Shown here piece by piece: positions 33,164-59,185 of a stretch of DNA of 64,000 nt. The notes below the pieces were generated by a model. It was not told the origin of the DNA. It saw only the letters and a list, made by a program, of their open reading frames with translations, and did not search any database. This stretch comes from Crossaster papposus. Lineage: Eukaryota > Echinodermata > Asteroidea > Velatida > Solasteridae. Location: NCBI GenBank assembly GCA_037893245.1, contig JBAIAA010000029.1, forward strand, positions 893,045-957,044, read 5' to 3'. Within the stretch, counting starts at the first letter, position 1. Each line of letters opens with the position of its first letter. Both the position numbers and the translations under genes were made by a program.

Positions 33164-34245
33164 ATGGTAGGATTGAAGTTGGTGTTCCTTTTGTCGCTGG
33201 TGGCCGGCGCGATCGTGGTCTGCAATGCCGAGACCGACACACTGGACAGCCTACTGCGGCGGATGCTCGACGAAATTCGCGCCCAAAATGTGGCGGTAAG
33301 TATTGCCTATATAAAACATTCATTTTGTTTCCCCTTTTCTGCAATGACTGACTTTTAGCGAGAAAAAAATGCAACCTCGTATGCTTCCATTAGCTCTTGT
33401 AGCTCTTGGAGCTACACTGTCTTGTTTTGATATATAGAAGAACTCGTGCTATAGATACATGTACCAAGAACTCCCGATTCGGTTTATTATTTATAATTCA
33501 TCCAGCGCCATTTTTGTCCAACAAAATAAGTCTGAGGCTCAAATTATGATGAACAATTACATCCAAGACTAATAGTAATAGCCCCGCTTTGGGTTCACGA
33601 AACAAAATGGCGCTGCAATCAAAACTCCTGAACCGATCAATCTGGAGTTCTTGGTTTTGGTTTTCCTTCTAACAAGATTTCCTATCCATTATAAAGGGTT
33701 TGGGTTCCTGAATATTGGAAGTATGAGGTTGCGGTTGTTGTTTTTACTATTCTGTATAATCGAGGGAAATGGGCGAAATATTCTTCATACAAAGTACCTG
33801 TGCGTATCTTTTTTTTTCAATTTCGTATGCTCTCTACTTGAAACCACACACACAGGTAGCTCAAGACTACGTACAGCGCCTGACCGAGGCACTACCTGGA
33901 GGCGGGTCGTCTATGGTCAGCATCTCCGTCTTGGGCATGACCAAAGGCAACCTCATGGCGCACGGCGGCAAAGGCGCGGTGCCTCTCACAGACATGCAGA
34001 TGAATCAGCTCGCCGCAGCCGTCAAGAACGGGCGCTTCGAGGCTTTCGACCAGAGTGGACTCAAGGTCGGGGGAAACATCTACCGTCTGCTAATGAGCAC
34101 CGCGGGCAAGCCAGTGGTTCGATTCGGCAGCCGGGCCGGGACTATTCTTGCCAAGAAGACCACTGCTGGAGCCGTGGTGATCTGGGTGCCAGCTGGGGTA
34201 GAGCTGGAACAGTTTGATACCGGCTTGAAAAATACCGAGAAGTAG
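33164..34245 (+). CDS. Secreted profilin-like protein, copy 1
   Basis: Two coding exons, 33164-33295 and 33856-34245 (donor GCG|GTAAGT, acceptor CACACAG|GTA, phase 0), give 173 aa. Residues 1-22 are a signal peptide (LVFLLSLVAGAIVV, then CNAE). A short acidic/basic helix follows (TDTLDSLLRRMLDEI). The second exon holds a complete profilin-like fold: YVQRL at the N-terminal helix, SISVLGMTKGNLMAHGG like the profilin '..AAIIGQDGSVWA', SGLKVGGNIYRLL like 'GLKVGGNKYM', and AGTILAKKTTAGAVVIWV like 'KKG.GG..IKKT..AL..GV'. The usual profilin aromatic poly-proline-binding residues appear largely missing, and the mature protein has no cysteine. Profilins are normally cytosolic actin-binding proteins, so secretion implies another role, which I cannot name. 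The ATG context (ATC ATG G) is strong. AATAAA (34274) and ATTAAA (34342) follow the stop. Confidence 0.85.
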
Positions 34246-34273
34246 GCTCGTTAACGAACATAAAATACCAAAT

Positions 34274-34347
34274 AATAAACAAATCTGCAAGTGACCTCGT
34301 AGGTTCTGTGCATATAAAATTAAAACAAATATATATTTTCGATTAAA
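34274..34347 (+). terminator. Polyadenylation signals of copy 1
   Basis: AATAAA at 34274-34279 and ATTAAA at 34342-34347 lie 29 and 97 nt after the stop. The second is preserved in copies 3 and 4. Confidence 0.45.
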
Positions 34348-35220
34348 GTAATTTATTTAACAATACAATTTACTAACAGACTTACATTAAAAAACTTCCA
34401 GTCGTAACTCAACGCAGTTATTATTTATTCGACATTTGAAACAATCGTGAAATATACTACAAAATACACACAAAAAAGACAGAGGCATATGCCTGGAATT
34501 AAAAAACTTTTACAAAGAAACTGACCGGGCCTTCAATTACAATGCCGTATAATTGTTTACAAAGAGAAAACTGGAAAAACGTTTTGATATTTGTAATTTT
34601 ATAGCCGTTTATATTAATATAGAATATTTATTCATTAAAGACTTCATTTTTAGTTGGCTAGGCCATATAACTTTACGATGAATAAACTTGTTTTTGTCTT
34701 TATACAACTTCCGTCTCGCTAAACTACTCGTGTACACGTCACTTGAGCTTAACCTAGTATTAATAAAACAACAAAGTAAACTATATAAACAAAATCTCTT
34801 TTACACTTAAAAAGTTTGTTAAATAAAGTAGTGTCGAACCTGACGTTAACATAAGAACAACAGATTTACCATTTTTTGTCCTGTTGTTGTAGTTTTTTTG
34901 GTTTTTCTTTACTGGCTTATGGGCCTGAACGCGCGGATAAAGCCCACTGTCAAACACTAAAATCGATAAAGGACCTTATTTGTTCATGGGTTAATATTGG
35001 AGAAAATGTCCTGCCCTAATCGATTTGCCTTCCGCAAAAATTGAAAGAAACCTATTGTTCGGTTTGTCCTTGCACATTAAAATATTTGTGTTCCCGCGGC
35101 GGGTTTCAGGAAATGTATTCGTGTTTTATATACATGTAGGTGTCTGTGGTTACACGCCATTAAATCGATTCTAATAACCCTTTCAGTACCAAGAAAAAAA
35201 CTTGCTCAGGTGAATGCTCA

Positions 35221-38200
35221 TCACAGACTATGAAACTTCTCAAAGCATGGTAGTACACACATTGGTTTGTCACACTGTTTACAAATCGTGCGAGTTTGTT
35301 TCCGCTTGGCTCTGGTACTGCAAACAACACAGTTGCGCTTTTTGCCGGCAAAATTTTTCCAGCCATAGTGATGAGTCGGAAAGCGGCTGAAACCACGTGA
35401 CACTTGACTGGCATGCTGAGCTGGGTTGTGCTTCCAACTGGAAATAAGCTCTTCTATCACCTTGACCCTGAAATCCAAAGTGGTCAAGTGCTGATTTGTA
35501 GGGATGCTGTTGTATACAATGGTAGCATTCACCAAGCAGATGTCAAGAATGGCCACGAAAACTCCTTTTCACCATTTCATCGATTTGTGAGGGTAGTACT
35601 GACATTTGTGCTGCGAGATCACTTCCTCCCATGTATTTATTATAATCATTAACGACAGAAGGTTTTTTGATCGTACGAAGTTCACTCAAACTTTTTTTGC
35701 TCCGAATGTTATTCGTGTCGATATTGCAGTTTCCAACATTTGTGAGAAGAGTTACACGCTTGGCATCATGCCAGACGACGCACAGTTGGCCGGCTTTGGT
35801 GTTAAACTGGGGGTATCACCACCTCTTATCATGTGTAACTTGTTTTGGTTTGCACAATCTGGAATCCCCAGTGTGGTGTATGTAGCGTGCAGTTCCACAA
35901 GCTCCAAACTTTAACTGTGACAACTTGCAGACAAGAGCTAGGCTAGTGTACCAACTGTCCATAAAAATGAAATGTCCCTATTATGTTCGAGTCCTGTAAT
36001 TATAGTCCAGGCAAAATACATAATTTTGTTTTGTTGACCTCAAACAAATTGCAACAAATTGTTTTTGGTCCCTAGAATTACATACTAAAAGTCTACAAAA
36101 ATCCAAGTGGTGGAAATATGTCTAATTTGCATTAATCGTTAATCCCTGCCGTGTAATATGTTTATTCCCATATTTGGGTATATAGGCCTATTTTATTTTT
36201 ATTTTTTGGCGATTATACTTAAACATGCTTACTTCAATAACATTTTCTAAAGAATGTAAGTGACTAAATAATTATGAAAATATAGTAATGGTCCAAAATG
36301 ACTACAATTATACCCTATCATTTGCACGCATTTACCGTGTCTCCAGATATCATCAAATAGTAAGTATTGAAGTGCTTCAAATTCACCAAGTTGCTTACTG
36401 GCACAGTTATCCCATTAAAACCTTATGGAAAATCATATGAACAATGATAACATTGTGATATTTAGTCCAGCAAACAAAAACTTGGAAAAAATGATGTGTC
36501 CCTAAATTGGGCTAACAAGTATAGGTGAAGGGTTGCCTAAGGTGAGATACTTGAACAAGTTCAAGGAAACCCCCCCAAATTTAAGATTGTTGTTGCTTAC
36601 AATAATCATATCTACGTTAAAATGTATTTTGGAGATTTCCTTGAACTTGTTCAAGTCTTCCATGTTAGGCAACCCTTTAACTACTTTTTAGCCTAATTTA
36701 TAGACACACCATTTTTCCCAAGTTTTTGTTTTCTGGGCTAATTATCACAATGTTATTATTGTTCATATGATTTTTCATAAGGTTTTAATATGATAACTGT
36801 GCCAGTAAGCAACTTGGTGAATTTGAAGCTCACCAATACTGACTACTTGATGATATCTGGAGACAGTGTAATGTGCGCACATTTATAGGGTCACGAAGTT
36901 GTCATTTTGGATAATTACTGTGTTCTCATAATTATTCAGTCACTTATATGCTTTAGCAAATGTTATTGAAGTAAGGATATTTAAGTAGAATCACCAAAAT
37001 AAACTTTTCAAAAAATAAAAATAAAATATATACCCAAATATGGGAATAAACATATTACACAGCAGGGATTAAGGATTTATGCAAATTAGACATATTTCCA
37101 CCACTTGGATTTTTGTAGATTTTTAGTATGTAATTCTAGAAACCTTATAGAAGTGCACTGTGGTGAAAAATAATTTGTTGCAATTTGTTTGAGGTCAAAA
37201 CTTATTTTTCCTGGACTATTAGGTCAGGACTACATGCCCAGCAGATGTAATATTAGGTTGGTGTTGTGTTGATACCCATGCACAGAAGCAAGGCCACGAA
37301 TGCCATAATTTCAGGAACAGTAGTTGGAGTCCAGGCAGGCTGATGATTGGCTACATCTGCACACATTTTTGGGCGGCATAGCGATTGGTCTCATCCACCA
37401 TCAACTCCCACACTGCTTGACAGAAGAAGAGCTGAAAGATTTCCATGGGCGACAGGTGACTGAAATCTCCCGTACAGCCAGTCTCTTCACTGATTTTCAT
37501 CGGTGGGCGCTTGCTGTAAAAAGGTGCTTGCTTTATTCCATCCATACCTGAAATAGGAACATTCCGAAAGGTTAATGGGCCCCACTTCATTTCACGGCAC
37601 ATTTTCTTTTAAGGGTAGTATACAACATTAGCTTTTTGGGGAGGGGGGGGGGGGGGGTCAAACGGATTTATCTGGGGTTTAATATTTTTTGGGACGACGG
37701 TTGGCCAACCATCTTTGGAAATTGCTAAACAATATCAGTTTTGTTAAAACAGAACAGCACACCAGGTGCCCTGATTTCACAGGATGCTCGAGACCATTCG
37801 TGACTGTCAAATATGGCCATTCATTAAATGAAGTAGTTTTGGGGGGTTTGGGGTTTTTTTGTGGTTTTTTTTTGGGGAGGGGGGGGGGGGGGGGGTGGGT
37901 GAAGTGTTTGTGAATCATTAACGGATTAAACCAGACACGAATTGAATCTGTATTTCCAGTCCTTTATTCTGCTCAGTTTTCTACACTAGTCTCATAGTAT
38001 CTGCCACCATGATTGCAAGCCTCGTGTGTCCCTAGCCTAAATCCCATGATAGTTACAGTGTATGAGGTCAACGGACTAGGGTCAACATTATTTTGCACAT
38101 TACATGTACTCATGAATATATATCACACACTACAGGGGGGGAGTCGCAAATGTTGTATTACCTTTAATGACAAACTGTCCTTACAATGCTGTTTTTGGAT

Positions 38201-38894
38201 GCTCGTATCTAGTGTTCCCACTGAAATATGTCTTCTTTTTTAATAAAATAATATCTCCTGAAATAAAATCTTCTTTTTAAAGATTATTATTATTGCCGCC
38301 TGTCTTTTCAGTAGTTGAAGAAGGCCCGATTCAGTGGAATTATATTTTTTTTTGTCACCTTCACATTTGCAGTCCTATCTGAAATTAGACTTGGATGCAA
38401 AATTATCACACTTTACTTTGCATAATTCAGGTACAACATTTCATAAATTTTCATGTTTTTTTCATTTCATTTCATTTATTATTTCGCAGGGCACAATAAG
38501 ATTGATTTACAATCAATAGAAAATTAATAAAAAAATCTATAAACAAATAAAAAATCTATATTTTCATCAATTTCTAATTGGATTCCATCGGATTAAGCAA
38601 TGCAAACTGAAACGTTCAGTGCTTTTGATGATTTTCCCTGCAAAAGGACATCAAAAATCCAAGGTTACATTAAAGTAGCCGATGAATGTCGGATGCGAAA
38701 CATTTCGAGAATACCCTTTTTTAATTTTAGTAACCTCCCTACCTGAAGTTTGGCTTTCCCGACAAAGTTGAAAAGGTTTGTGTTGCCTCTTCATAACTTT
38801 CGTCAGACGTTGCTACAGAAGATTCAACATCGGACATATCTGAACCGCTATCTGCGAAGATTTCCTCCAAAATCTTGGAAGCGTTTTCGGTCAT
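35221..38894 (-). pseudogene. piggyBac transposase remnant with introns, copy 1
   Basis: Exon 1 (38894-38743) begins ATG ACC GAA and encodes an acidic N-terminus (ASKILEEIFADSGSDMSD), ending at a good donor CTTCAG|GTAGGG. A second block about 37548-37230 carries SPMEIFQLFFCQAVWELMVD, ETNRYAAQKC and AFVALLLCMGINTTPT-like sequence. The third block (about 35980-35221) encodes FMDSWYTS, VVWHDAKRVTLLTNVG, DYNKYMGGSDLAAQ, LDICLVNATIVYN and the cysteine-rich tail CDKPMCVLPCFEKFH. These are piggyBac (DDE_Tnp_1_7) signatures. An in-frame TGA and a frameshift near 35557, plus a 1.2-kb foldback insertion at 36003-37218, make it non-functional. CCCTTTCAGTACC near 35177 may be its terminus. Confidence 0.82.
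36003..37218. mobile_element. 1.2-kb foldback element inside the piggyBac remnant, copy 1
   Basis: Arms of about 600 bp: TAGTCCAGG at 36003 pairs with CCTGGACTA ending 37218, and CCCATATTTGGGTATAT pairs with ATATACCCAAATATGGG. The centre is near 36612, beside TTGAACAAGTTCAAGGAAA / TTTCCTTGAACTTGTTCAAG. The target duplication is TTA or ATTA. Other, shorter copies occur at 39558, 44460, 46990, 47766 and 55651. Confidence 0.9.
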
Positions 38895-38909
38895 GATGGC
38901 GGCCAAGTC

Positions 38910-39556
38910 AGTGGCTGGCGTGGGGATGCAAGTAAAGGGCCTTTCGGGGGCGCGCGCGCGTCCTTTTGAGCGGTTTGAAACCGCTGGTCACATAACGACT
39001 ATTATAATGGGGGACATACGAGTTCCTTGGCTGCGAACGTCCATGCAACTTTGAGCAAAGGTGGCGCGCTCGGTACTGATGATAGGGATACAGCCCATAG
39101 ATAATGCCTAACCCAACGATAAATACGCCATCTTTCAAATTTATAAGAAGAACTACTTGCAACTCCCAAAGATGTTTGAGACACGCATAAAATGAAAACT
39201 TATTTCATCATCTTTTGTAGGGACTGATAACCGATGATTTTTAGCTGAAACTTTCAAAGTAGTCCTGTCGCTCATCGCATGCTTGCACGTCCATATCCAC
39301 TGTACACGTGCATTTACACGTTTAATACATGACCCATAATGTGCGTTTCATTTCATTTCACCGTAGGCTAAATTGGCATTTTCTACGCAACGATCGACCA
39401 ATAACAAACCGACTTTATAAGCCAACTTAGGCTATTAGCATAATAAGCACCACCCCAAAACCTCACAGGATCAGAATGAATGAAACAAGCTGCCTATGCC
39501 ATCAATGTGATCCAGTTGAGTTGTTTATAGTGTATAATAATTTGTATTTGTTTGAC
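38910..39556. other. Spacer shared by all units, no gene seen
   Basis: Contains CGCTGGTCACATAACGACTA and following sequence repeated at about 43885 and 55076, and in degenerate form near 60070. Short open frames here are not supported. Confidence 0.5.
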
Positions 39557-39557
39557 A

Positions 39558-40435
39558 AGTTTATTTTGGTGATTGTACTTATACATCCTTACTTCAATAA
39601 CATTTTCTGAAGCATGTAAGAGACTGAATAATTATGAAAATATAGTAATGGTCTAAAATAACTACAATGTTCGCCTATAATTTGCACGCATTTACCTTGT
39701 CTCCAGATATCATCAAGTAGTCAGTATTGACGAGTCAGCTTCAAATTCAACCAAGTTGCTTACTGGCACAGTTATCCTATTCAACCTTATGGAAAATCAT
39801 ATGAACAATGATAACATTGTGATATTTAGCCAAGCAAACAAAAACTGGGGGAAATGGTGTGTCCATAAATTGGGCTAAACATTAGGTGAAGGGTTGCCTA
39901 AGGTGAGAGACTTGAACAAGTTCAAGAAACCCCCCTCCCCCCAAAAAAAAATAAAAAAATAAAATAAAATAAACAAATACGGATTTGTGTAGCTTACAGT
40001 AATCATATCTACGTTAAAATGTATTATGGGGATTTCCTTGAACTTGTTCAAGTCGTCCATGTTAGGCAACCCTTTAACTACTTTTAGCCCAATTTATGGA
40101 CACACCATTTTCCCCAGTTTTTGTTTGCTGTGCTAAATATCACAATGTTATCATTGTTTATATGATTTCCCATAAGGTTTGTTTCAATTATGATAATTGT
40201 GCCAGCAAGCAACTTGGTGATTTTTAAGCTCACCAATACTGACTACTTGATGATATCTGGTGACAGTGTAATGTGCGTCATTTTGGACAATTACTATGTT
40301 CTCATAATTATTCAGTCACTTATATGCTTTAGATTAATGTTAGGAGGTAGGGATATGCAAGTAAAATCACCAAAAATAAACTTTAAAAAAAAATATATAT
40401 ATAAACACACCTCTTGCTAGTTTTTCCTGGATTAT
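39558..40435. mobile_element. Foldback element, internally shorter relative
   Basis: Symmetric about 39960 (ACTTGAACAAGTTCAAG / CTTGAACTTGTTCAAGT), with outer ATTATTCAGTCACTTATATGC matched by GCATGTAAGAGACTGAATAAT. It is related to the 36003 element but lacks its outer left arm. Confidence 0.8.
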
Positions 40436-40831
40436 CTAGCGCACGATCTCGTATGCAAAAACAGATCATAGTATAGGCGGGGCTTATATTTGGGGTGTCC
40501 AATCACACCTTGGTTAATCCCAACGTCACGCAGCTATATAGGCATACTTTGCATACATTACATTCGAAAAAAATGGCAAAGACCTTTCTTCGTGGTCAAG
40601 TTTGCAACTAGTATGTTGTTCTAATGTATGGGGCTGGTCTTGCTTGATCCTCATTACATGCGCTCGGTAAAATGCAATTGCAAAAGTAACTGCGTAATAA
40701 AACTAAACAAAAACTTATCTGTTTAGTGTAACACAATGTACATGTAGTAGTTTTGTCAATTGACAAAATAAACATCTGTTTTACGGAATGTTTAGAAACC
40801 AGACGTTTGTGTTAATTATAGATGCTGAAAC

Positions 40832-41400
40832 CTACGGAGGCCCTAAAGGGACATATGACGAAAAGAAATCACCGTGACGAAATAATTCGATTTTTTTATT
40901 TCGTGCGCTCGAAATCATTTCGTGCCCACGAAATGATTTCGTGAGCTCGAAATCATTTCGTGAGCTCGAAATCATTTCGTGCGCTCGAAATACTTTATTT
41001 CGTTCGCTCGAAATCATTTCGTGCGCTCGAACAAATGAACAACTCGGTCTTGGAGCAAGACTAGCCTGCTTAATGCTGACACAACGTCATATAATTTACT
41101 TAAGCGATTTCTAGCAAACCACGAAATGATTTCGAGCGCACGAAATGAATTCAATATAGAACGAAATGATTTCGAGTGCACGAAATGATTTCGAGCGAAC
41201 GAAATAATTTCGAGCGCACGAAATGATTTCGAGTGCACGAAATACAGTATTTCGAGCGCACGAAATGATTTTGAGCTCACGAAAATATTTTTTTCGAGTG
41301 CACGAAATGATTTCGTGGGCAATAAAAAATAAAAAACTCAAATTATTTCGTCACGGTGATTTGTATTCGTCATAATTATGTCCCTTTAGGGGCTCCGTAG
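40832..41400. mobile_element. CTACGGAG foldback with internal ATTTCGTGCGCTCGAA arrays
   Basis: Termini CTACGGAGGCCCTAAAGGGA and TCCCTTTAGGGGCTCCGTAG, with inner inverted TCACCGTGACGAAATAAT. Between them two opposed arrays of an AAATCATTTCGTGCGCTCG-type unit point at each other. The element is 569 bp. Open frames on the minus strand (repeated SFRALEIIS) come from the repeat. Confidence 0.9.
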
Positions 41401-41595
41401 AAATCTAACTCAAGCGTTAGGGGATACAATACAATTCCCAATGCACCTTTACCTCATAATAAAATTCATTATAATTACAGATCCGAGGTCGTTATGTCCG
41501 GAATTTTAATCGGGTTAATAAGGTATTTGTAGCGAGAATTTGTGTTGTCCTATATGGGAAAAAAAAAGAGAATTACCGGCCACAGCAGCGGTTAC

Positions 41596-41715
41596 ATGCA
41601 AATAAGCCTCGCTTTGCTTTTAAAATGAATTCTAAAGAGTCAGCTTTTCGAAGTAATTCCGTTACGTAAGTACAATGAAAAAGGGCGGAACATACGTTCA
41701 GCAAAGCGTATTTAA
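41596..41715 (+). promoter_or_regulatory. Promoter of profilin-like copy 2
   Basis: ATGCAAAT 41596-41603, TTACGTAA 41662-41669, GGGCGG 41683-41688 and TATTTAA 41709-41715. The 5' untranslated intron is 41801-42014. Confidence 0.7.
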
Positions 41716-42022
41716 CCCTCGCCAAGTTTCGAGTTCGTTCATTGCGAAGCATTGGCTTGAGCTGTAAACATCTTGCCAAACTACCCGTGCCTAAAAAACA
41801 GTAAGATATTGGTTTTGAAACTGGGCCTATATGGTATACAATGATTTGTTTACAGGTGCACGTGGAAATTGGTTGTACGTTCGGTGATTTTTAAGTCGTT
41901 TTCGGAGGTCCAAATTCGTTGGAATAATGTACGTCCAAATGTACCGAGCTGCCTCTTTAATTTGCGGTTAACTGTCGCACTTTTTGTGATGTTTCTCTTT
42001 TGGTTGGTTTCTAGACCTCATC

Positions 42023-43075
42023 ATGGTAGGATTGAAGTTGGTGTTCCTTTTGTCGCTGGTGGCCGGCGCGTTCGTGGTCTGCAATGCCGAGACCGACACT
42101 CTGGACAGCCTACTGCGGCGGATGCTCGACGAAATTCGTGCCCAAAATGTGGCGGTAAGTATTGCCTAACCATTCATTTGTTTTCCCTTTTTACTGCAAT
42201 GACCGACTTTTAGCGAGAAAAAAAATTGCAACATCGTATGCATCCACTAGATCTTGGAGCTACACTGCCTTGTATGGATATAAGAACTCGTGCTATATAC
42301 ATGTACTAAAAACTCCCGATTCGGTTTATTATTTATAATTCCAGCGCCATTTTTGTCGAACAAAATAAGTCCGAGGCTCAAATTATGATGAACAATTACA
42401 TCCAAGACTAATAGTAATAGCCCCGCTTTGGGTTCACGAAACAAAATGGCACTGCAATCAAAACTCCTGAACCGATCAATCTGGAGTTGTTGGTTTTGGT
42501 TTTCCTTCTAACAAGATTTCCTATCCATTATAAAGGGTTTGGGTTCCTGAAAGTATGAGGTTGCGGTTGTTGTTTTTACTATTCTGTATAATCGAGGGAA
42601 ATGGGCGAAATATTCTTTATACAAAGTACCTTTGTGTATCTGTATTTTTACAATGTTGTATGCACTCTATTTGAAACACACGCAGGTAGCTCAAGACTAC
42701 GTACAGCGCCTGACCGCGGCACTACCTGGAGGCGGGTCGTCTATGGTCAGCATCTCCGTCCTTGACATGACCAAAGGCAACCTCGTGGCGCACGGCGGCA
42801 AAGGCGCGGTGCCTCTCACAGACATGCAGATGAATCAGCTCGCCGCAGCCGTCAAGAACGGGCGCTTCGAGGCTTTCGACCAGAGTGGACTCAAGGTCGG
42901 GGGAAACATCTACCGTCTGCTAATGAGCACCGCGGACAAGCCAGTGGTTCGATTCGGCAGCCGGGCCGGGACTATTCTTGCCAAGAAGACCACTGCTGGA
43001 GCCGTGGTGATCTGGGTGCCAGCTGGGGTAGAGCTGGAACAGTTTTATACCGGCTTGAAAAATACTGCGAAGTAG
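42023..43075 (+). CDS. Secreted profilin-like protein, copy 2
   Basis: Exons 42023-42154 and 42686-43075 (GCG|GTAAGT, CACGCAG|GTA), 173 aa, with intact frame and splice sites. Compared with copy 1 it has AFVV in the signal peptide, LTAALP in place of LTEALP, LDMTKGNLVAH in place of LGMTKGNLMAH, STADKP in place of STAGKP, and a C-terminus EQFYTGLKNTAK. It is the most diverged of the intact copies. Same family and the same uncertainty about function as copy 1. Confidence 0.85.
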
Positions 43076-43719
43076 GCTCGTTAACGAACATAAAATACCA
43101 ATTAAACAAATCTGCAAGTGACCTCGTAGGTTCTGTGCATATAAAATTAAAACAAATGTATATTTTCGAGTAAAGTAATTTATTTAACAATACAATTTAC
43201 TAACAGACTGACATTAAAAAAATCTTCCAGTCGTAACTCAACGCAGTTATTATTTATTCGACATTTGAAACAATCGTGAAATATACTACAAAATACAACA
43301 TAAAGACGTTTACTTAGAAACTGACCCGGCCTTCAATTACAATGCCGTATAACTTTTTACAAAGAGAGAACCGGAAAAACGTTTATATAATTGTAATTTT
43401 CTAGCCGTTTATATTAATATAGGATATTCATTAAAGATTTTTAGTTGGCTATATCTTTACGATGAACAAACTTGTTTTTGTCTTTATACAACTTCCGTCT
43501 CGCTAAACTACTCGTGTACACATCGCTTAAGCTTAACCTAGTCTTAATAAAACAACAAAGTAAACTATATAAAAAACCTCTTTTACACTTAAAAAGTTTG
43601 TTGAATAAAGTAGTGTCGAACCTGACGTTAACATAAGAACAGATTTACCATTTTTTGTCCTGTTGTATTTTTTTTGGTTTTTTTGTGGTTTTTTTTTTTT
43701 CTTTACTGGCTTATGGGCC

Positions 43720-43865
43720 TTTGAAAATACTTAGATATTTTATTCAAAATGAAGGAAATCCGGACTGTGAAGGTAATTGCACAAACTTACAAAATGGGTA
43801 TACACTATGGATGCCGTTAAAAGGTCCAAATGAAGGCCCCCCCCCCCCCCCCCCCCCTCCCCACC
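43720..43865. repeat. Sequence ending in a long poly-C tract, shared with unit 3
   Basis: TTCAAAATGAAGGAAATCCG...ATGCCGTTAAAAGG followed by about 20 C and CACCCAACTCAA. The same stretch is at 51066-51223 in unit 3. In both places it sits at a junction where the units differ. Confidence 0.7.
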
Positions 43866-44459
43866 CAACTCAAAAAAAGAACGCTGGTCACATAACGACT
43901 ATTATAATGGGGGACATACAAGCTCCTTGGCTGCGAACGTCCATGCAACTTTGAGCCAAGTGGCGCGCTCGGTACTGATAGGGATACAGCCCATAGATAA
44001 TGCATAGCCCAATGATAAATACGCCATCTTTCAAAATTATAAGAAGAAATACTTGCAACTCCCCAAGATGTTTGAGACACGCATAACATGAAAACTTATT
44101 TCATCATCTTTTGTAGGGACTGATAACCGATGATTTTTAGGAGAAACTTTCAAAGTAGTCCTGTCGCTCATCGCATGCTTGCACGCCCATATCCACTGTA
44201 CACGTGCATGTACACGTTTAATACATGACCCATAATGTGCGTGCCGTTGTGACATTTCACCGTAGGCTAAATTTGCATTTTCTACGCAACGATCGACCAA
44301 TAACAAACCGACTTTATAAGCCAACTGAGGCTATTAGCATAATAAGCACCACCCAAAAACCTCACAGGATCAGAATGAATGAAACAAGCTGCCTATGCCA
44401 TCAATGTTATCCAGTTGAGTTGTTTATAGTGTATAATAATTTTTATTTTTTGAAACGTT

Positions 44460-44820
44460 TATTTTGGTGATTGTACATCCTTACTTCAATAACATTTTCT
44501 GAAGCATGTAAGTGACTGAATAATTATGAAAATATAGTAATGGTCTAAAATGACTACAATTATCGCCTATAATTTGCACGCATTTACCTTGTCTGCAGAT
44601 ATCATCAAGTAGTCAGTATTGACGAGCTTCAAATTCACAAAGTTGCTTACTGGCACAGTTATCCTATTAAACCTTATGGAAAATCATATGAACAATGATA
44701 ACATTGTGATATTTAGCCAAGCAAACAAAAACTATGGAAAAATGGTGTGTCCATAAATTGGGCTAAACATTAGGTGAAGGGTTGCCTAAGGTGAGAGACT
44801 TGAACAAGTTCAAGGAACCC
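44460..44820. mobile_element. One arm of the foldback element (unit 2)
   Basis: Matches 39560-39925 up to TTGAACAAGTTCAAGGAA and is then interrupted by unit-2-specific DNA. Outer-arm pieces of such elements reappear at about 46990-47029 and 47766-47936. Confidence 0.75.
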
Positions 44821-44822
44821 CG

Positions 44823-45750: not shown

Positions 45751-45754
45751 TATT

Positions 45755-46690: not shown

Positions 46691-46834
46691 AATTGTTGAC
46701 TGGTTACAGCGCCCTCAAGAGGTTTGCCAGGCTCATCTTAATATCAAAAATGGCTGCGTCTTGATCGGATCACAATTATTTCATATAAAGGACCGATGTG
46801 TGTTATAAAATAAATAATGAACTGGAATGATTCG

Positions 46835-46976
46835 GTCACTAGAGCACATCTATCCCCCCTCAGGCCTGTGATTGACCAAAAGGGGGACCTGTTTCACTCG
46901 GCCTTCGGCCTCGGGAAATAAGTCCCCCTTCTGGTCACTCACAGTCCCTCGGGGGGAATAGACGTGCTCTAGTGAC
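46835..46976. mobile_element. Small palindrome (CACTAGAGCAC ... GTGCTCTAGTG)
   Basis: A roughly 140-bp inverted repeat with inner CCAAAAGGGGGACC / AAGTCCCCCTTCTGG and centre TCGGCCTTCGGCCTCGGG. No coding content. Confidence 0.7.
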
Positions 46977-47029
46977 CTCATTGCCAGTCCAAATTTGCAT
47001 AATAATTAATATACCCAAATATGGGAATA

Positions 47030-47765: not shown

Positions 47766-48325
47766 GAATAAATATATTACGCGGCAGGAATTAACGATTT
47801 ATGCAAATTAGTCATATTTCCACCACTTGAATTTTTAAAGACTTTTAATATGTCATTGTGGGGACCGTTTAGAAATGCAGTGGTGAATAATTTGTTTGCT
47901 ATTTGTTTGAGGTCAAAACTTATTTTTTCGGGACTGTCTAGCGCACGATCTGGTCTCGCTCGATCCTCATTACATGCGCTCAATAAAATGCAATTGCAAA
48001 AGTAACTGCGTAATCAATTTAACAAAAACTAATCCCGCATAGTGTAACACAATGTACATGTAGTAGTTTTGTCAGTTGACAAAATAAACATCTGTTTTAC
48101 GGAATGTTTAGAAACCAGACGATTTTTGTTAATTACTGATGCTGAACACTAACACAAGCGTCAGAGGATACAATACAAGACTAATTTATTCTCAATGCAC
48201 CTTTATACCTCATCATTCCGCGAGAGTCCGAGTAAATACAATTCATTACATATCCGAGGTTATTATGTCCGAAATTGTAATCGGGTTAATAAGGTATTTG
48301 TAGCGAGAATTATAGCAGCCGTTAC

Positions 48326-48445
48326 ATGCAAATAAGCCTCGCTCTGCTTTTCAAATGAATTCTAAAGATTCAGCTTTTCGAAGTAATTCCGTTACGTAAG
48401 TACAATGAAAAAGGGCGGAACATACGTTCAGCAAAGCGTATTTAA
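48326..48445 (+). promoter_or_regulatory. Promoter of profilin-like copy 3
   Basis: ATGCAAAT 48326-48333, TTACGTAA 48392-48399, GGGCGG 48413-48418 and TATTTAA 48439-48445, all unchanged. The 5' untranslated intron is 48535-48753. Confidence 0.65.
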
Positions 48446-48761
48446 CCCTCGCCAAGTTTTGAGTTGGTTCATTTAGAAGCATCGACTTGAGCTGTAAACA
48501 TCGTGCCAACCTAACTACCCGTGCCTAAAAAACAGTAAGATATTGGTTTTGAAATTGTGCCTATATAGTATACAATGATTTGTTTACAGGTGCACGTGGA
48601 AATTGGTTGTACAGTACGTTCGGTGATTTTTAAGTCGTTTTCGGAGGTCCAAATTCGTTGGAATAATGTACGTCCAAATGTACCCAGCTGCCTCTTTAAT
48701 TTGCGGTTAACTGTCGCACTTTTTGTGATGTTTCTCTTTTGGTTGGTTTCTAGACCTCATC

Positions 48762-49811
48762 ATGGTAGGATTGAAGTTGGTGTTCCTTTTGTCGCTGGTG
48801 GCCGGCGCGATCGTGGTCTGCAATGCCGAGACCGACACACTGGACAGCCTACTGCGGCGGATGCTCGACGAAATTCGCGCCCAAAATGTGGCGGTAAGTA
48901 TTGCCTATATAAAACATTCATTTTGTTTCCCCTTTTCTGCAATGACCGACTTTTAGCGAGAAAAAAAAAGCAACCTCGTATGCTTCCATTAGCTCTTGTA
49001 GCTCTTGGAGCTACACTGTCTTGTTTTGATAGAAGAACTCGTGCTATAGATGCATGTACCAAGAACTCCCGATTCGGTTTATTATTTATAATTCATCCAG
49101 CGCCATTTTTGTCCAACAAAATAAGTCTGAGGCTCAAATTATGATGAACAATTACATCCAAGACTAATAGTAATAGCCCCGCTTTGGGTTCACGAAACAA
49201 AATGGCGCTGCAATCAAAACTCCTGAACCGATCAATCTGGAGTTTTTGGTTTTCCTTCTAACAAGATTTCCTATCCATTATAAAGGGTTTGGGTTCCTGA
49301 AAGTATGAGGTTGCGGTTGTTTTTTTTTATTCTGTATAATCGAGGGAAATGGGCGAAATATTCTTCATACAAAGTACCTGTGCGTATCTTTTTTTTCTTC
49401 AATTTCGTATGCTCTCTACTTGAAACCACACACACGGGTAGCTCAAGACTACGTACAGCGCCTGACCGCGGCACTACCTGGAGGCGGGTCGTCTATGGTC
49501 AGCATCTCCGTCTTGGACTCATGGCGCACGGCGGCAAAGGCGCGGTGCCTCTCGCAGACATGCAGATGAATCAGCTCGCCGCAGCCGTCAAGAACGGGCG
49601 CTTCGAGGCTTTCGACCAGAGTGGACTCAAGGTCGGGGGAAACATCTACCGTCTGCTAATGAGCACCGCGGGCAAGCCAGTGGTTCGATTCGGCAGCCGG
49701 GCCGGGACTATTCTTGCCAAGAAGACCACTGCTGGAGCCGTGGTGATCTGGGTGCCAGCTGAGGTAGAGCTGGAACAGTTTGATACCGGCTTGAAAAATA
49801 CCGAGAAGTAG
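48762..49811 (+). pseudogene. Secreted profilin-like protein, copy 3 (broken)
   Basis: Exon 1 (48762-48893) is intact and identical in protein to copy 1. Before exon 2 the acceptor CACACAG is changed to CACACGG, so the AG is lost. In exon 2 (49438-49811) the 17 nt present in copy 1 between 'cgtcttgg' and 'ctcatggcg' are replaced by a single A near 49516, a net loss of 16 nt that shifts the frame. The downstream frame (MAHGGKGAVPLADMQMNQ onward) is otherwise preserved with PAEVE in place of PAGVE. It probably cannot make the full protein. Use of a nearby AG would not repair the frame. Confidence 0.85.
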
Positions 49812-50754
49812 GCTCGTTAACGAACGTATAATACCAAATAATAAACAAATCTGCAAGTGACCTCATAGGTTCTGTGCATATAAAATTAAAACAAATATAT
49901 ATTTTCGATTAAAGTAATTTATTTAACAATACAATTTACTAACAGACTTACATTAAAAAACTTCCAGTCGTAACTCAACGCAGTTATTATTTATTCGACA
50001 TTTGAAACAATCGTGAAATATACTACAAAAAAGACAGAGGCATATGCCTGGAATTAAAAAACTTTTACAAAGAAACTGACCGGGCCTTCAATTACAATGC
50101 CGTATAATTGTTTACAAAGAGAAAACTGGAAAAACGTTTTGATATTTGTAATTTTATAGCCGTTTATATTAATATAGAATATTTATTCATTAAAGACTTC
50201 ATTTTTAGTTGGCTAGGCCATATAACTTTACGATGAATAAACTTGTTTTTGTCTTTATACAACTTCCGTCTCGCTAAACTACTCGTGTACACGTCACTTG
50301 AGCTTAACCTAGTATTAATAAAACAACAAAGTAAACTATATAAAAAAAATCTCTTTTACACTTAAAAAGTTTGTTAAATAAAGTAGTGTCGAACCTGACG
50401 TTAACATAAGAACAACAGATTTACCATTTTTTGTCCTGTTGTTGTAGTTTTTTTTGGTTTTTCTTTACTGGCTTATGGGCCTGAACGCGCGGATAAAGCC
50501 CACTGTCCAACACTAAAATCGATAAAGGACCTTATTTGTTCATGGGTTAATATTGGAGAAAATGTCCTGCCCTAATCGATTTGCCTTCCGCAAAAATTGA
50601 AAGAAACCTATTGTTCGGTGTGTCCTTGCACATTAAAATATTTGTGTTCCCGCGGCGGGTTTCAGGAAATGTATTCGTGTTTTATATACATGTAGGTGTC
50701 TGTGGTTACACGCCATTAAATCGATTCTAATAACCCTTTCAGTACCAAGAGTAA

Positions 50755-51295
50755 TGTACATGATATGACCAGTTAGTGACCAAGCACTTTTTGGCCAAGT
50801 GTTAGTGTATAGCGCCCTCGCAAGGCAAAGTAATGAAAGGCCACTCTTCTTTGAAGTGGTGTTGAAACAATGGATTGACAGTACCCCCAAAGCAATGACT
50901 ATTAGATTAATTAAAACAACAATATTGGCCTGTGATAAAAAAAAATGGAAGGGGTGGAAAGAATTCCATACTTGTTTGCCCTTAATATGACTTGACAACT
51001 ACCAAGAAGTGTAAATCTGATGAAGAAACACAAATTTAGGAGTGAGAAAATTTCTTTGAAAATACTTGGATACTTAGATTTTATTCAAAATGAAGGAAAT
51101 CCGGACTGTGAAGATAATTGCACAAACTTACAAAATGGATACACTATGGATGCCGTTAAAAGTTCAAATGAAGGCCCCCCCCCCCACCCCCCCCCCCCCC
51201 CCCCCCCCCCCCCCACCCAACTCAATGTTGGGTTGGCAGTGTGTGCACCATCACTCCAACATTGAAATGGGGGGGGGGGGGGGTTGGCGGGGCGC
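50755..51295. other. Unit-3-specific stretch, no gene seen
   Basis: Present between TACCAAGA and AAAAAACTTGCTCAGG but absent at the same point (about 35195) in unit 1. It contains the 43720-type sequence and long C and G tracts. It may be the original 3' part of the piggyBac element that was deleted from unit 1. Confidence 0.5.
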
Positions 51296-51322
51296 AAAAA
51301 AACTTGCTCAGGTGAATGCTCA

Positions 51323-54300
51323 TCACAGACTATGAAACTTCTCAAAGCATGGTAGTACACACATTGGTTTGTCACACTGTTTACAAATCGTGCGAGTTTG
51401 TTTCCGCTTGGCTCTGGTACTGCAAACAACACAGTTGCGCTTTTTGCCGGCAAAATTTTTCCAGCCATAGTGATGAGTCGGAAAGCGGCTGAAACCACGT
51501 GACACTTGACTGGCATGCTGAGCTGGGTTGTGCTTCCAACTGGAAATAAGCTCTTCTATCACCTTGACCCTGAAATCCAAAGTGGTCAAGTGCTGATTTG
51601 TAGGGATGCTGTTGTATACAATGGTAGCATTCACCAAGCAGATGTCAAGAATGGCCACGAAAACTCCTTTTCACCATTTCATCGATTTGTGAGGGTAGTA
51701 CTGACATTTGTGCTGCGAGATCACTTCCTCCCATGTATTTATTATAATCATTAACGACAGAAGGTTTTTTGATCGTACGAAGTTCACTCAAACTTTTTTT
51801 GCTCCGAATGTTATTCGTGTCGATATTGCAGTTTCCAACATTTGTGAGAAGAGTTACACGCTTGGCATCATGCCAGACGACGCACAGTTGGCCGGCTTTG
51901 GTGTTAAACTGGGGGTATCACCACCTCTTATCATGTGTAACTTGTTTTGGTTTGCACAATCTGGAATCCCCAGTGTGGTGTATGTAGCGTGCAGTTCCAC
52001 AAGCTCCAAACTTTAACTGTGACAACTTGCAGACAAGAGCTATAGGCTAGTGTACCAACTGTCCATAAAAATGAAATGTCCCTTATGTTCGAGTCCTGTA
52101 ATTATAGTCTAGGCAAAATACATAATTTTGTTTTGTTGACCTCAAACAAATTGCAACAAATTGTTTTTGGTCCCTAGAATTACATACTAAAAGTCTACAA
52201 AAATCCAAGTGGTGGAAATATGTCTAATTTGCATAAATCGTTAATCCCTGCCGTGTAATATGTTTATTCCCATATTTGGGTATATATTTTATTTTTATTT
52301 TTTGGCGATTATACTTAAACATGCTTACTTCAATAACATTTTCTAAAGAATGTAAGTGACTAAATAATTATGAAAATATAGTAATGGTCCAAAATGACTA
52401 CAATTATACCCTATCATTTGCACGCATTTACCGTGTCTCCAGATATCATCAAATAGTAAGTATTGAAGTGCTTCAAATTCACCAAGTTGCTTACTGGCAC
52501 AGTTATCCCATTAAAACCTTATGGAAAATCATATGAACAATGATAACATTGTGATATTTAGTCCAGCAAACAAAAACTTGGAAAAAATGATGTGTCCCTA
52601 AATTGGGCTAACAAGTATAGGTGAAGGGTTGCCTAAGGTGAGATACTTGAACAAGTTCAAGGAAACCCCCCCAAATTTAAGATTTTTGTTGCTTACAATA
52701 ATCATATCTACGTTAAAATGTATTTTGGGGATTTCCTTGAACTTGTTCAAGTCTTCCATGTTAGGCAACCCTTTAACTACTTTTTAGCCTAATTTATAGA
52801 CACACCATTTTTCCCAAGTTTTTGTTTTCTGGGCTAATTATCACAATGTTATTATTGTTCATATGATTTTTCATAAGGTTTTAATATGATAACTGTGCCA
52901 GTAAGCAACTTGGTGAATTTGAAGCTCACCAATACTGACTACTTGATGATATCTGGAGACAGTGTAATGTTCGCACATTTATAGGGTCACGAAGTTGTCA
53001 TTTTGGATAATTACTGTGTTCTCATAATTATTCAGTCACTTATATGCTTTAGCAAATGTTATTGAAGTAAGGATATTTAAGTAGAATCACCAAAATAAAC
53101 TTTTCAAAAAATAAAAATAAAATATATACCCAAATATGGGAATAAACATATTACACAGCAGGGATTAAGGATTTATGCAAATTAGACATATTTCCACCAC
53201 TTGGATTTTTGTAGATTTTTAGTATGTAATTCTAGAAACCTTATAGAAGTGCACTGTGGTGAAAAATAATTTGTTGCAATTTGTTTGAGGTCAAAACTTA
53301 TTTTTCCTGGACTATTAGGTCAGGACTACATGCCCAGCAGATGTAATATTAGGTTGGTGTTGTGTTGATACCCATGCACAGAAGCAAGGCCACGAATGCC
53401 ATAATTTCAGGAACAGTAGTTGGAGTCCAGGCAGGCTGATGATTGGCTACATCTGCACACATTTTTGGGCGGCATAGCGATTGGTCTCATCCACCATCAA
53501 CTCCCACACTGCTTGACAGAAGAAGAGCTGAAAGATTTCCATGGGCGACAGGTGACTGAAATCTCCCGTACAGCCAGTCTCTTCACTGATTTTCATCGGT
53601 GGGCGCTTGCTGTAAAAAGGTGCTTGCTTTATTCCATCCATACCTGAAATAGGAACATTCCGAAAGGTTAATGGGCCCCACTTCATTTCACGGCACATTT
53701 TCTTTTAAGGGTAGTATACAACATTAGCTTTTTGGGGAGGGGGGGGGGGGGGTCAAACGGATTTATCTGGGGTTTAATATTTTTTGGGACGACGGTTGGC
53801 CAACCATCTTTGGAAATTGCTAAACAATATCAGTTTTGTTAAAACAGAACAGCACACCAGGTGCCCTGATTTCACAGGATGCTCGAGACCATTCGTGACT
53901 GTCAAATATGGCCATTCATTAAATGAAGTAGTTTTGGGGGGTTTGGGGGTTTTTTTGTGGTTTTTTTTTTTTTTTGGGGGGGGGGGGGTGGGTGAAGTGT
54001 TTGTGAATCATTAACGGATTAAACCAGACACAAATTGAATCTGTATTTCCAGTCCTTTATTCTGCTCAGTTTTCTACACTAGTCTCATAGTATCTGCCAC
54101 CATGATTGCAAGCCTCGTGTGTCCCTAGCCTAAATCCCATGATAGTTACAGTGTATGAGGTCAACGGACTAGGGTCAACATTAGTTTGCACATCACATGT
54201 ACTCATGAATATATATCACACACTACAGGGGGGGAGTCGCAAATGTTGTATTACCTTTAATGACAAACTGTCCTTACAATGCTGTTTTTGGATGCTCGTA

Positions 54301-54987
54301 TCTAGTGTTCCCACTGAAATATGTCTTCTTTTTTAATAAAATAATATCTCCTGAAATAAAATCTTCTTTTTAAAGATTATTATTATTGCCGCCTGTCTTT
54401 TCAGTAGTTGAAGAAGGCCCGATTCAGTGGAATTATATTTTTTTTTGTCACCTTCACATTTGCAGTCCTATCTGAAATTAGACTTGGATGCAAAATTATC
54501 ACACTTTACTTTGCATAATTCAGGTACAACATTTCATAAATTTTCATGTTTTTTTCATTTCATTTCATTTATTATTTCGCAGGGCACAATAAGATTGATT
54601 TACAATCAATAGAAAATTAATAAAAAAATCTATAAACAAATAAAAAATCTATATTTTCATCAATTTCTAATTGGATTCCATCGGATTAAGCAATGCAAAC
54701 TGAAACGTTCAGTGCTTTTGATGATTTTCCCTGCAAAAGGACATCAAAAATCCAAGGTTACATTAAAGTAGCCGATGAATGTCGGATGCGAAACATTTCG
54801 AGAATACCCTTTTTTAATTTTAGTAACCTCCCTACCTGAAGTTTGGCTTTCCCGACAAAGTTGAAAAGGTTTGTGTTGCCTCTTCATAACTTTCGTCAGA
54901 CGTTGCTACAGAAGATTCAACATCGGACATATCTGAACCGCTATCTGCGAAGATTTCCTCCAAAATCTTGGAAGCGTTTTCGGTCAT
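51323..54987 (-). pseudogene. piggyBac transposase remnant, copy 2
   Basis: A duplicate of the 35221-38894 pseudogene with the same exon 1 (54987-54836), the same core and C-terminal blocks, and the same TGA and frameshift. The lesions therefore predate the segmental duplication. Confidence 0.82.
52105..53314. mobile_element. 1.2-kb foldback inside the piggyBac remnant, copy 2
   Basis: Same element and same insertion point as 36003-37218, differing by a few substitutions and small indels (for example TAGTCTAGG in place of TAGTCCAGG). Confidence 0.9.
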
Positions 54988-55650
54988 GATGGCGGCCAAG
55001 TCAGTGGCTGGCGTGGGGATGCAAGTAAAGGGCCTTTCGGGAGCGCGCGCGCGTCCTTTTGAGCGGTTTAAAACCGCTGGTCACATAACGACTATTATAA
55101 TGGGGGACATACGAGTTCCTTGGCTGCGAACGTCCATGCAACTTTGAGCAAAGGTGGCGCGCTCGGTACTGATGATAGGGATACAGCCCATAGATAATGC
55201 CTAACCCAACGATAAATACGCCATCTTTCAAATTTATAAGAAGAACTACTTGCAACTCCCAAAGATGTTTGAGACACGCATAAAATGAAAACTTATTTCA
55301 TCATCTTTTGTAGGGACTGATAACCGATGATTTTTAGCTGAAACTTTCAAAGTAGTCCTGTCGCTCATCGCATGCTTGCACGTCCATATCCACTGTACAC
55401 GTGCATTTACACGTTTAATACATGACCCATAATGTGCGTTTCATTTCATTTCACCGTAGGCTAAATTGGCATTTTCTACGCAACGATCGACCAATAACAA
55501 ACCGACTTTATAAGCCAACTTAGGCTATTAGCATAATAAGCACCACCCCAAAACCTCACATGATCAGAATGAATGAAACAAGCTGCCTATGCCATCAATG
55601 TGATCCAGTTGAGTTGTTTATAGTGTATAATAATTTGTATTTGTTTGACA

Positions 55651-56528
55651 AGTTTATTTTGGTGATTGTACTTATACATCCTTACTTCAATAACATTTTC
55701 TGAAGCATGTAAGAGACTGAATAATTATGAAAATATAGTAATGGTCTAAAATAACTACAATGTTCGCCTATAATTTGCACGCATTTACCTTGTCTCCAGA
55801 TATCATCAAGTACTCAGTATTGACGAGTCAGCTTCAAATTCAACCAAGTTGCTTACTGGCACAGTTATCCTATTCAACCTTATGGAAAATCATATGAACA
55901 ATGATAACATTGTGATATTTAGCCAAGCAAACAAAAACTGGGGGAAATGGTGTGTCCATAAATTGGGCTAAACATTAGGTGAAGGGTTGCCTAAGGTGAG
56001 AGACTTGAACAAGTTCAAGAAACCCCCCTCCCCAAAAAAAATAAATAAATAAATAAATAAAATAAACAAATACGGATTTGTGTAGCTTACAGTAATCATA
56101 TCTACGTTAAAATGTATTATGGGGATTTCCTTGAACTTGTTCAAGTCTTCCATGTTAGGCAACCCTTTAACTACTTTTAGCCCAATTTATGGACACACCA
56201 TTTTCCCCAGTTTTTGTTTGCTGTGCTAAATATCACAATGTTATCATTGTTTATATGATTTCCCATAAGGTTTGTTTCAATTATGATAATTGTGCCAGCA
56301 AGCAACTTGGTGATTTTTAAGCTCACCAATACTGACTACTTGATGATATCTGGTGACAGTGTAATGTGCGTCATTTTGGACAATTACTATGTTCTCATAA
56401 TTATTCAGTCACTTATATGCTTTAGATTAATGTTAGGAGGTAGGGATATGCAAGTAAAATCACAAAAAATTAACTTTAAAAAAAAATATATATATAAACA
56501 CACCTCTTGCTAGTTTTTCCTGGATTAT
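55651..56528. mobile_element. Foldback element, duplicate of 39558-40435
   Basis: Nearly identical to the unit 1 copy. The A-rich loop differs (AAATAAATAAATAAATAA type). Confidence 0.8.
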
Positions 56529-56924
56529 CTAGCGCACGATCTCGTATGCAAAAACAGATCATAGTATAGGCGGGGCTTATATTTGGGGTGTCCAATCACA
56601 CCTTGGTTAATCCCAACGTCACGCAGCTATATAGGCATACTTTGCATACATTACATTCGAAAAAAATGGCAAAGACCTTTCTTCGTGGTCAAGTTTGCAA
56701 CTAGTATGTTGTTCTAATGTATGGGGCTGGTCTTGCTTGATCCTCATTACATGCGCTCGGTAAAATGCAATTGCAAAAGTAAGTGCGTAATAAAACTAAA
56801 CAAAAACTTATCTGTTTAGTGTAACACAATGTACATGTAGTAGTTTTGTCAATTGACAAAATAAACATCTGTTTTACGGAATGTTTAGAAACCAGACGTC
56901 TGTGTTAATTATAGATGCTGAAAC

Positions 56925-57509
56925 CTACGGAGGCCCTAAAGGGACATATGACGAAAAGAAATCACCGTGACGAAATAATTCGATTTTTTTATTTCGTGCG
57001 CTCGAAATCATTTCGTGCCCACGAAATGATTTCGTGAGCTCGAAATCATTTCGTGAGCTCGAAATCATTTCGTGCGCTCGAAATACTTTATTTCGTTCGC
57101 TCGAAATCATTTCGTGCGCTCGAACAAATGAACAACTCGGTCTTGGAGCAAGACTAGCCTGCTTAATGCTGACACAACGTCATATAATTTACTTAAGCGA
57201 TTTCTAGCAAACCACGAAATGATTTCGAGCGCACGAAATGAATTCAATATAGAACGAAATGATTTCGAGTGCACGAAATGATTTCGAGCGCACGAAATAA
57301 TTTCGAGCGCACGAAATGATTTCGAGTGCACGAAATAAAGTATTTCGAGCGCACGAAATGATTTTGAGCTCACGAAAATATTTTTTTCGAGTGCACGAAA
57401 TGATTTCGTGGGCACGAAATGATTTCGAGAGCACGAAATTAAAAACTCAAATTATTTCGTCACGGTGATTTTTATTCGTCATAATTATGTCCCTTTAGGG
57501 GCTCCGTAG
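56925..57509. mobile_element. CTACGGAG foldback, duplicate copy
   Basis: A 585-bp copy of 40832-41400 with one extra internal unit (CACGAAATGATTTCGAGAG) near the right end. Confidence 0.9.
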
Positions 57510-57706
57510 AAATCTAACTCAAGCGTTAGGGGATACAATACAATTCCCAATGCACCTTTACCTCATAATAAAATTCATTATAATTACAGATCCGAGGTCG
57601 TTATGTCCGGAATTTTAATCGGGTTAATAAGGTATTTGTAGCGAGAATTTGTGTTGTCCTATATGGAAGAAAAAAAAAGAGAATTACCGGCCACAGCAGC
57701 GGTTAC

Positions 57707-57826
57707 ATGCAAATAAGCCTCGCTTTGCTTTTAAAATGAATTCTAAAGATTCAGCTTTTCGAAGTAATTCCGTTACGTAAGTACAATGAAAAAGGGCGGA
57801 ACATACGTTCAGCAAAGCGTATTTAA
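57707..57826 (+). promoter_or_regulatory. Promoter of profilin-like copy 4
   Basis: ATGCAAAT 57707-57714, TTACGTAA 57773-57780, GGGCGG 57794-57799 and TATTTAA 57820-57826. The 5' untranslated intron is 57912-58125. Confidence 0.7.
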
Positions 57827-58133
57827 CCCTCGCCAAGTTTCGAGTTCGTTCATTGCGAAGCATTGGCTTGAACTGTAAACATCTTGCCAAACTACCCGTG
57901 CCTAAAAAACAGTAAGATATTGGTTTTGAAACTGGGCCTATATGGTATACAATGATTTGTTTACAGGTGCACGTGGAAATTGGTTGTACGTTCGGTGATT
58001 TTTAAGTCGTTTTCGGAGGTCCAAATTCGTTGGAATAATGTACGTCCAAATGTACTGAGCTGCCTCTTTAATTTGCGGTTAACTGTCGCACTTTTTGTGA
58101 TGTTTCTCTTTTGGTTGGTTTCTAGACCTCATC

Positions 58134-59185
58134 ATGGTAGGATTGAAGTTGGTGTTCCTTTTGTCGCTGGTGGCCGGCGCGTTCGTGGTCTGCAATGCCG
58201 AGACCGACACTCTGGACAGCCTACTGCGGCGGATGCTCGACGAAATTCGTGCCCAAAATGTGGCGGTAAGTATTGCCTAACCATTCATTTGTTTTCCCTT
58301 TTTACTGCAATGACCGACTTTTAGCGAGAAAAAAATTGCAACCTCGTATGCATCCACTAGATCTTGGAGCTACACTGCCTTGTATGGATATAAGAACTCG
58401 TGCTATATACATGTACTAAAAACTCCCGATTCGGTTTATTATTTATAATTCCAGCGCCATTTTTGTCGAACAAAATAAGTCCGAGGCTCAAATTATGATG
58501 AACAATTACATCCAAGACTAATAGTAATAGCCCCGCTTTGGGTTCACTAAACAAAATGGCGCTGCAATCAAAACTCCTGAACCGATCAATCTGGAGTTCT
58601 TGGTTTTGGTTTTCCTTCTAACAAGATTTCCTATCCATTATAAAGGGTTTGGGTTCCTGAAAGTATGAGGTTGCGGTTGTTGTTTTTACTATTCTGTATA
58701 ATCGAGGGAAATGGGCGAAATATTCTTTATACAAAGTACCTTTGTGTATCTGTATTTTTACAATGTTGTATGCACTCTATTTGAAACACACGCAGGTAGC
58801 TCAAGACTACGTACAGCGCCTGACCGCGGCACTACCTGGAGGCGGGTCGTCTATGGTCAGCATCTCCGTCTTGGGCATGACCAAAGGCAACCTCATGGCG
58901 CACGGCGGCAAAGGCGCGGTGCCTCTCACAGACATGCAGATGAATCAGCTCGCCGCAGCCGTCAAGAACGGGCGCTTCGAGGCTTTCGACCAGAGTGGAC
59001 TCGAGGTCGGGGGAAACATCTACCGTCTGCTAATGAGCACCGCGGGCAAGCCAGTGGTTCGATTTGGCAGCCGGGCCGGGACTATTCTTGCCAAGAAGAC
59101 CACTGCTGGAGCCGTGGTGATCTGGGTGCCAGCTGGGGTAGAGCTGGAACAGTTTGATACCGGCTTAAAAAATACCGAGAAGTAG
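58134..59185 (+). CDS. Secreted profilin-like protein, copy 4
   Basis: Exons 58134-58265 and 58796-59185 (GCG|GTAAGT, CACGCAG|GTA), 173 aa, intact. Exon 1, the intron and LTAALP match copy 2, but LGMTKGNLMAH, STAGKP, EQFDTGLKNTEK and the 3' untranslated region (CGAACGTATAATACC) match copies 1 and 3. A single private change gives SGLEVGG in place of SGLKVGG. The mosaic suggests gene conversion or unequal crossing-over. Confidence 0.85.

Follow-up and report, generated by a model that had tools for sequence, protein, structure and literature searches.

Putatively secreted paralogs of profilin encoded by a duplicated gene family in the starfish Crossaster papposus

Introduction

Few cytoskeletal proteins are as conserved as profilin, which normally resides in the cytosol. 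Can an animal genome also encode profilins destined for export? This question is raised by a small gene repeated near the end of contig C29 (JBAIAA010000029.1) in the genome assembly of the starfish Crossaster papposus (GCA_037893245.1; 1.02 Gb, 1841 contigs). The stretch of DNA analyzed here, hereafter called the window, comprises the last 64 kb of this contig (positions 893,045 to 957,044) and ends at the contig end. With a probability of roughly 0.7, we conclude that the repeated genes encode secreted paralogs of profilin with a probable extracellular binding role.

Results

Gene structure and signal peptide

A gene composed of two coding exons on the plus strand is present four times across positions 33164..59185 (Table 1). 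Exon 1 (132 nt) encodes the sequence MVGLKLVFLLSLVAGA(I/F)VVCNA-ETDTLDSLLRRMLDEIRAQNVA, and exon 2 (390 nt) encodes 129 residues followed by the stop codon. The exons are separated by a phase 0 intron of the form GTAAGT...CAG, which is 530–560 nt long in the intact window copies and keeps its GT..AG borders in three of the four. Copies 1, 2 and 4 are intact, each encoding 173 aa. In copy 3, an altered acceptor, a deletion in exon 2 and a frameshift mark a pseudogene, so that three window copies are able to make the protein. An AATAAA or ATTAAA motif follows the stop codon within 150 nt in all four copies. The site TTTCTAG, located 8 nt upstream of the ATG, is identical in all of them and in a relative on contig C457; a further exon upstream of exon 1 is therefore possible.

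Table 1. Exons of the four gene copies and the duplicated block (positions in the window)
Feature	Position	Strand	Remarks
Copy 1, exon 1	33164..33295	+	Putative signal peptide (residues 1-22) and N-terminal helix (23-44); ATG context and donor GCG/GTAAG kept in relatives
Copy 1, exon 2	33856..34245	+	Profilin-like domain (residues 45-173), stop codon
Copy 2, exon 1	42023..42154	+	
Copy 2, exon 2	42686..43075	+	Query of the better structure model
Copy 3, exon 1	48762..48893	+	Intact in itself
Copy 3, exon 2 (broken)	49438..49811	+	GG in place of acceptor AG at 49436-49437; 16-bp deletion near 49517; frameshift
Copy 4, exon 1	58134..58265	+	
Copy 4, exon 2	58796..59185	+	
Duplicated block	35194..43634	+	Second copy at about 51296-59738 (offset 16.1 kb), 97.8% identical across 8.5 kb

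Judged by eye and from hydropathy, a signal peptide is present in all six intact copies found in the genome (three in the window, two on contig C352 and one on contig C457), which have identical reading-frame lengths. The hydrophobic stretch at residues 6–19 has a mean Kyte-Doolittle value of 2.86–2.98 in the three intact window copies. Beyond residue 30 the maximal 19-residue hydropathy is 1.28–1.49, the C-terminus reads NT(E/A)K, and the sequence contains neither a transmembrane helix nor an endoplasmic reticulum retention signal. In all six copies the mature chain lacks cysteine and N-glycosylation motifs, has a pI of 9.0–9.6 and a mass near 16 kDa. By its sequence, the family thus departs from ordinary profilins, which are cytosolic and have no signal peptide. 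An earlier note on this DNA had proposed that the signal peptide occupies an exon of its own and that the mature chain is free of cysteine; the first is supported by the conservation of the exon pair, including exon order, intron phase and splice sites, in the six intact copies, and the second holds in all of them.

Could exon 2 be expressed alone from another promoter, giving an intracellular profilin-like protein? In copies 1, 2 and 4 its frame extends 32–45 codons into the intron without a stop, and each of them has an in-frame ATG. However, the position of this ATG in copy 1 is unlike that in copies 2 and 4, the upstream residues differ, and exon 1 is conserved together with exon 2 in every intact copy, which makes this arrangement very unlikely.

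Copy number and relatives in the genome

The count of four tandem gene copies given in the earlier note stands as a count of loci in the span but is overstated as a count of genes, given the broken copy 3 and a possible haplotype duplication. The duplicated blocks (Table 1) are preceded by an extra 2.5 kb at 97.3% identity. Near-identical contig pairs occur elsewhere in the assembly (loci L001/L002, 99.7% over 2.0 kb; L003/L004, 98.8% over 2.7 kb) and suggest that both haplotypes are partly represented. The second block could therefore be the other haplotype joined in tandem instead of extra genes. At the same time, loci L005 and L008 lie on a single contig and yet are 99.3% alike, so that identity alone does not decide between a haplotype and a tandem duplication.

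A whole-genome search with exon 2, whose counts are lower bounds, returned at least 11 rows. From the window came the three intact copies and copy 3 in two pieces; the other family members were two copies on C352 (93 and 95% identity) and one on C457 (81%). Next below the family came three ordinary profilins with 24–26% identity (E 0.16–0.43), two of which (C195 and C955) are a near-identical pair. The search with exon 1 gave eight places, namely the seven loci of the family plus a relic on C1112 that consists of exon 1 alone, has lost 2 nt and shows no second exon within the roughly 6 kb of downstream sequence examined. The C352 and C457 copies share the exon lengths and phase of the window copies, have GT donors and CAG acceptors and encode 173 aa.

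Fold and homology to profilins

Structure prediction for copy 2 followed by a fold search placed profilins first, and they ranked first in all four fold-match lists, obtained with the single-sequence and the better model. Sequence profiles were then compared. The eight host profilin loci fetched encode five distinct proteins, four of which were used to build a hidden Markov model (HMM). This model scored 16.7–19.3 bits on the six copies; copy 1 was shuffled 20,000 times without any shuffle reaching its score (best 11.0), and the reversed sequence gave -0.9. Reciprocally, the family HMM scored 9.5–19.8 bits on the four host profilins, in each case above all 1,500 shuffles. Profile alignment by hhalign of the six copies with a profilin set that included those of the host gave a probability of 71.5–72.6%. 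These host-profilin tests place the homology beyond chance.

With an HMM of nine distant profilins from yeast, amoeba, plant and fly the family scored 11.2–12.5 bits, a value tied by one of 5,000 shuffles in one run and by none of 20,000 in another, and under the family HMM plant and fly profilins were equalled by 1 to 18 of 1,500 shuffles. When the C457 domain was searched against the genome, two of the three next-ranking rows outside the family were ordinary profilins, which form a near-identical pair (E 1.06); in both genome searches combined, ordinary profilins account for five of the six rows just below the family. Compared with the yeast, plant, amoeba and fly sequences used, the family and the four host profilins also have two extra residues in an F-x-x-F-x-x-x-G stretch that they share. 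The profilin-like fold claimed by the earlier note is thus supported by fold search and profile tests; of the profile search that it had proposed, the HMM of host profilins matches and the Pfam model PF00235 does not.

Another family that shares this arrangement, for instance Roadblock/LC7 (LAMTOR2, MglB), might instead be the source of the domain. This we regard as highly improbable, since profilins lead the four lists, the sequence tests favor host profilins and most of the nearest genome matches outside the family are profilins; Pfam gave no Roadblock family row at E up to 10, and equally none for profilin.

Several results weigh against the relationship to profilins or against a functional product. 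The better structure model is of moderate confidence, its five runs spreading from 32.5 to 68.2 mean pLDDT, and the single-sequence model was poor (41.6 pLDDT), its fold matches agreeing nonetheless. Pfam searches with copies 1 and 2 listed no PF00235 row up to E 10, a phmmer comparison of copy 1 with PDB sequences returned no profilin, and hhalign of the three window copies with the nine distant profilins gave a probability as low as 0.7%. Under the family HMM, 105–1,224 of 1,500 shuffles scored as high as the profilins of yeast, fission yeast and Acanthamoeba, which are therefore no match. Finally, exon 2 dN/dS among close copies ranges over 0.33–1.33 and exceeds 1 in three of ten pairs, a measure that says little because each pair differs by only 4 to 15 changes.

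Further searches gave nothing relevant in NCBIfam (copy 1) and no relative in IMG/VR or GTDB genome contigs at E up to 1e-3, with single-protein queries that reach close relatives only. A weak phage match (E 0.7) was judged to be due to chance.

Sequence constraint

The last of the adverse results, together with the one broken window copy in four and the C1112 relic, bears on the view that the copies are an unused relic, duplicated without expression. We consider this quite unlikely. Six frames of equal length are intact, the splice sites are kept, and AATAAA-like signals follow the window copies. Moreover, copy 1 differs from C457 by 0.11 in exon 1 and 0.13 in exon 2, about half the divergence of the intron (0.28; 3' flank, 0.22). 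In the five comparisons with C457, dN/dS was 0.35–0.41 for exon 2 in every case and 0.35–0.59 for exon 1.

Profilin residues kept and lost

Window copy 1, one C352 copy (C352a) and C457 were aligned with host, yeast, plant, amoeba and fly profilins, and all six copies were inspected in a separate check. Here the residue numbers (W3, Y6, W31, C-terminal Y), the equivalence of the arginine of the host-profilin FLREE motif to human Arg74 and the binding roles of these positions are our assumptions, made with the help of PMC9527652. In the family W3 is replaced by A and W31 by M, V or L, and Y6 is kept in all six copies. The C-terminal helix is about seven residues shorter than in profilins and the C-terminal aromatic residue is absent, leaving Y6 as the only remaining aromatic of the poly-proline pocket. 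The earlier note had described these aromatics as mostly missing, and the alignment agrees. At positions relevant to actin, the FLREE arginine is M, and DT, YT or DA stands in place of the NK pair that precedes the C-terminal helix; the family retains the phenylalanines around the Phe59 region.

The main functional rival is a protein that is secreted yet binds actin, scavenging what spills from damaged cells. The predicted fold, which is that of actin-binding profilins, and the basic mature chain would suit it. The replaced arginine, the altered NK pair and the short C-terminal helix speak against it. In addition, the accessible text of PMC9527652 links weak actin binding of a viral profilin-like protein to loss of His119, Lys90 and the Phe59 helix, that is, loss of other contacts goes with weak binding there. 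We hold such a scavenger to be unlikely. Given the dismantled poly-proline pocket and several changed actin-contact positions, the family most likely no longer serves the cytoskeleton.

Other features of the window and assembly

Outside the gene family, the window contains a 695-residue open reading frame (3100-5187, plus strand) with a RING domain, two B-box stretches and an NHL repeat, that is, a TRIM-type protein. Two exon-like frames on the minus strand (10491-12722) show weak similarity, below Pfam cut-offs, to GH63 C-terminal and MGH1-like glycoside hydrolase domains. The minus-strand frames 35221-35568 and 51323-51670 have the same translation; the first matches a DDE_Tnp_1-like zinc finger and represents a transposon remnant. 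Minisatellites of 18 nt (about 41 copies) and 21 nt (about 29 copies), with spurious frames on both strands, occupy 1449-2159 and 12844-13456. A search of the window with Rfam gave nothing at gathering scores.

Elsewhere in the assembly, a contig of more than 5.2 Mb carries a stop-free relative of COX1 (C8:5208663, locus L020), which we presume to be quinol-oxidase-like; this contig is probably bacterial, from a symbiont or a contaminant. One contig, of 16,330 bp, has the character of a mitochondrial genome: in its COX1, 13 TGA codons must be read through, AGA fits Ser, and at conserved positions AAA reads as Asn and ATA as Ile. We take this codon usage to be the echinoderm code, and the order and strands of the mitochondrial tRNA genes presumably fit the inverted arrangement of starfish.

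Discussion

The host genome contains many places with ordinary profilins (15 PF00235 rows, some of them fragments, on contigs C518, C1092, C42, C300, C118, C195 and C955), several of which share a contig, and some contig pairs look like haplotypes. The family resembles these PF00235 proteins in its predicted fold, the order of its elements and a colinear sequence match over most of the domain. It differs from them by the signal peptide and helical extension, the lack of a Pfam match, of the poly-proline tryptophans and of cysteine, and the shortened C-terminal helix. Near the start of the domain, the family and several host profilins alike have an acceptor-like site. In the host profilin L003/L004, however, the ATG lies in the same open frame, so that an intron position shared by the family and ordinary profilins is only suggestive.

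The sea urchin gene SpCoel1, for an ordinary cytosolic profilin, is reportedly expressed in coelomocytes in response to injury, according to the title of a report on it; it would tie an echinoderm profilin to immune cells of the body cavity, with no secreted form indicated. A brittle star profilin stays expressed through arm regeneration, and the accessible text notes no secreted form (PMC11959729). The two cases may serve as a lead on profilins in echinoderm repair.

Known unusual profilins differ from the family in other ways. Poxvirus A42R, as described in the accessible part of its report, is viral, has 6% identity in the structural alignment and retains the N-terminal tryptophan, Trp4 (PMC9527652). 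For Asgard archaeal profilins with an N-terminal extension, both actin modulation and poly-proline binding have been shown, unlike the family, and the accessible text does not describe the extension as a signal peptide (PMC8410842). Extracellular profilin-1 in vascular disease is likewise a profilin present and active outside cells; it is, however, ordinary profilin-1, and the main text of the report does not contain the words "signal peptide" or "secreted" (PMC2963617). Among the matches listed from the open-access literature, none describes an animal profilin that carries its own signal peptide.

The following scenario can be proposed. A copy of an ordinary profilin gene would have come to lie behind an exon encoding a signal peptide and a 22-residue helix; the anatomy is seen in the present genes, and the order of events is our inference. 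The spliced product would enter the secretory pathway, lose residues 1–22 and be exported, as its sequence predicts. Once exported, the protein would be basic, lack cysteine and have a mass of about 16 kDa, with a predicted profilin fold and an N-terminal helical extension. Most likely, the profilin scaffold would then work outside the cell, in coelomic fluid, mucus or matrix, as a small binding protein. The new extracellular role suggested by the earlier note is plausible. With somewhat less assurance than for secreted paralogs as such, we favor the view that echinoderms evolved a truly secreted profilin family, combining the scaffold with a signal-peptide exon, abandoning the poly-proline pocket and taking on an extracellular job, for example in humoral binding or immunity.

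If the genes do encode secreted profilin paralogs, they would show a cytoskeletal fold moved outside the cell with a dedicated signal peptide and maintained as a duplicated, constrained family. They would also provide a natural test of the binding range of the profilin scaffold once binding of actin and poly-proline is no longer required.
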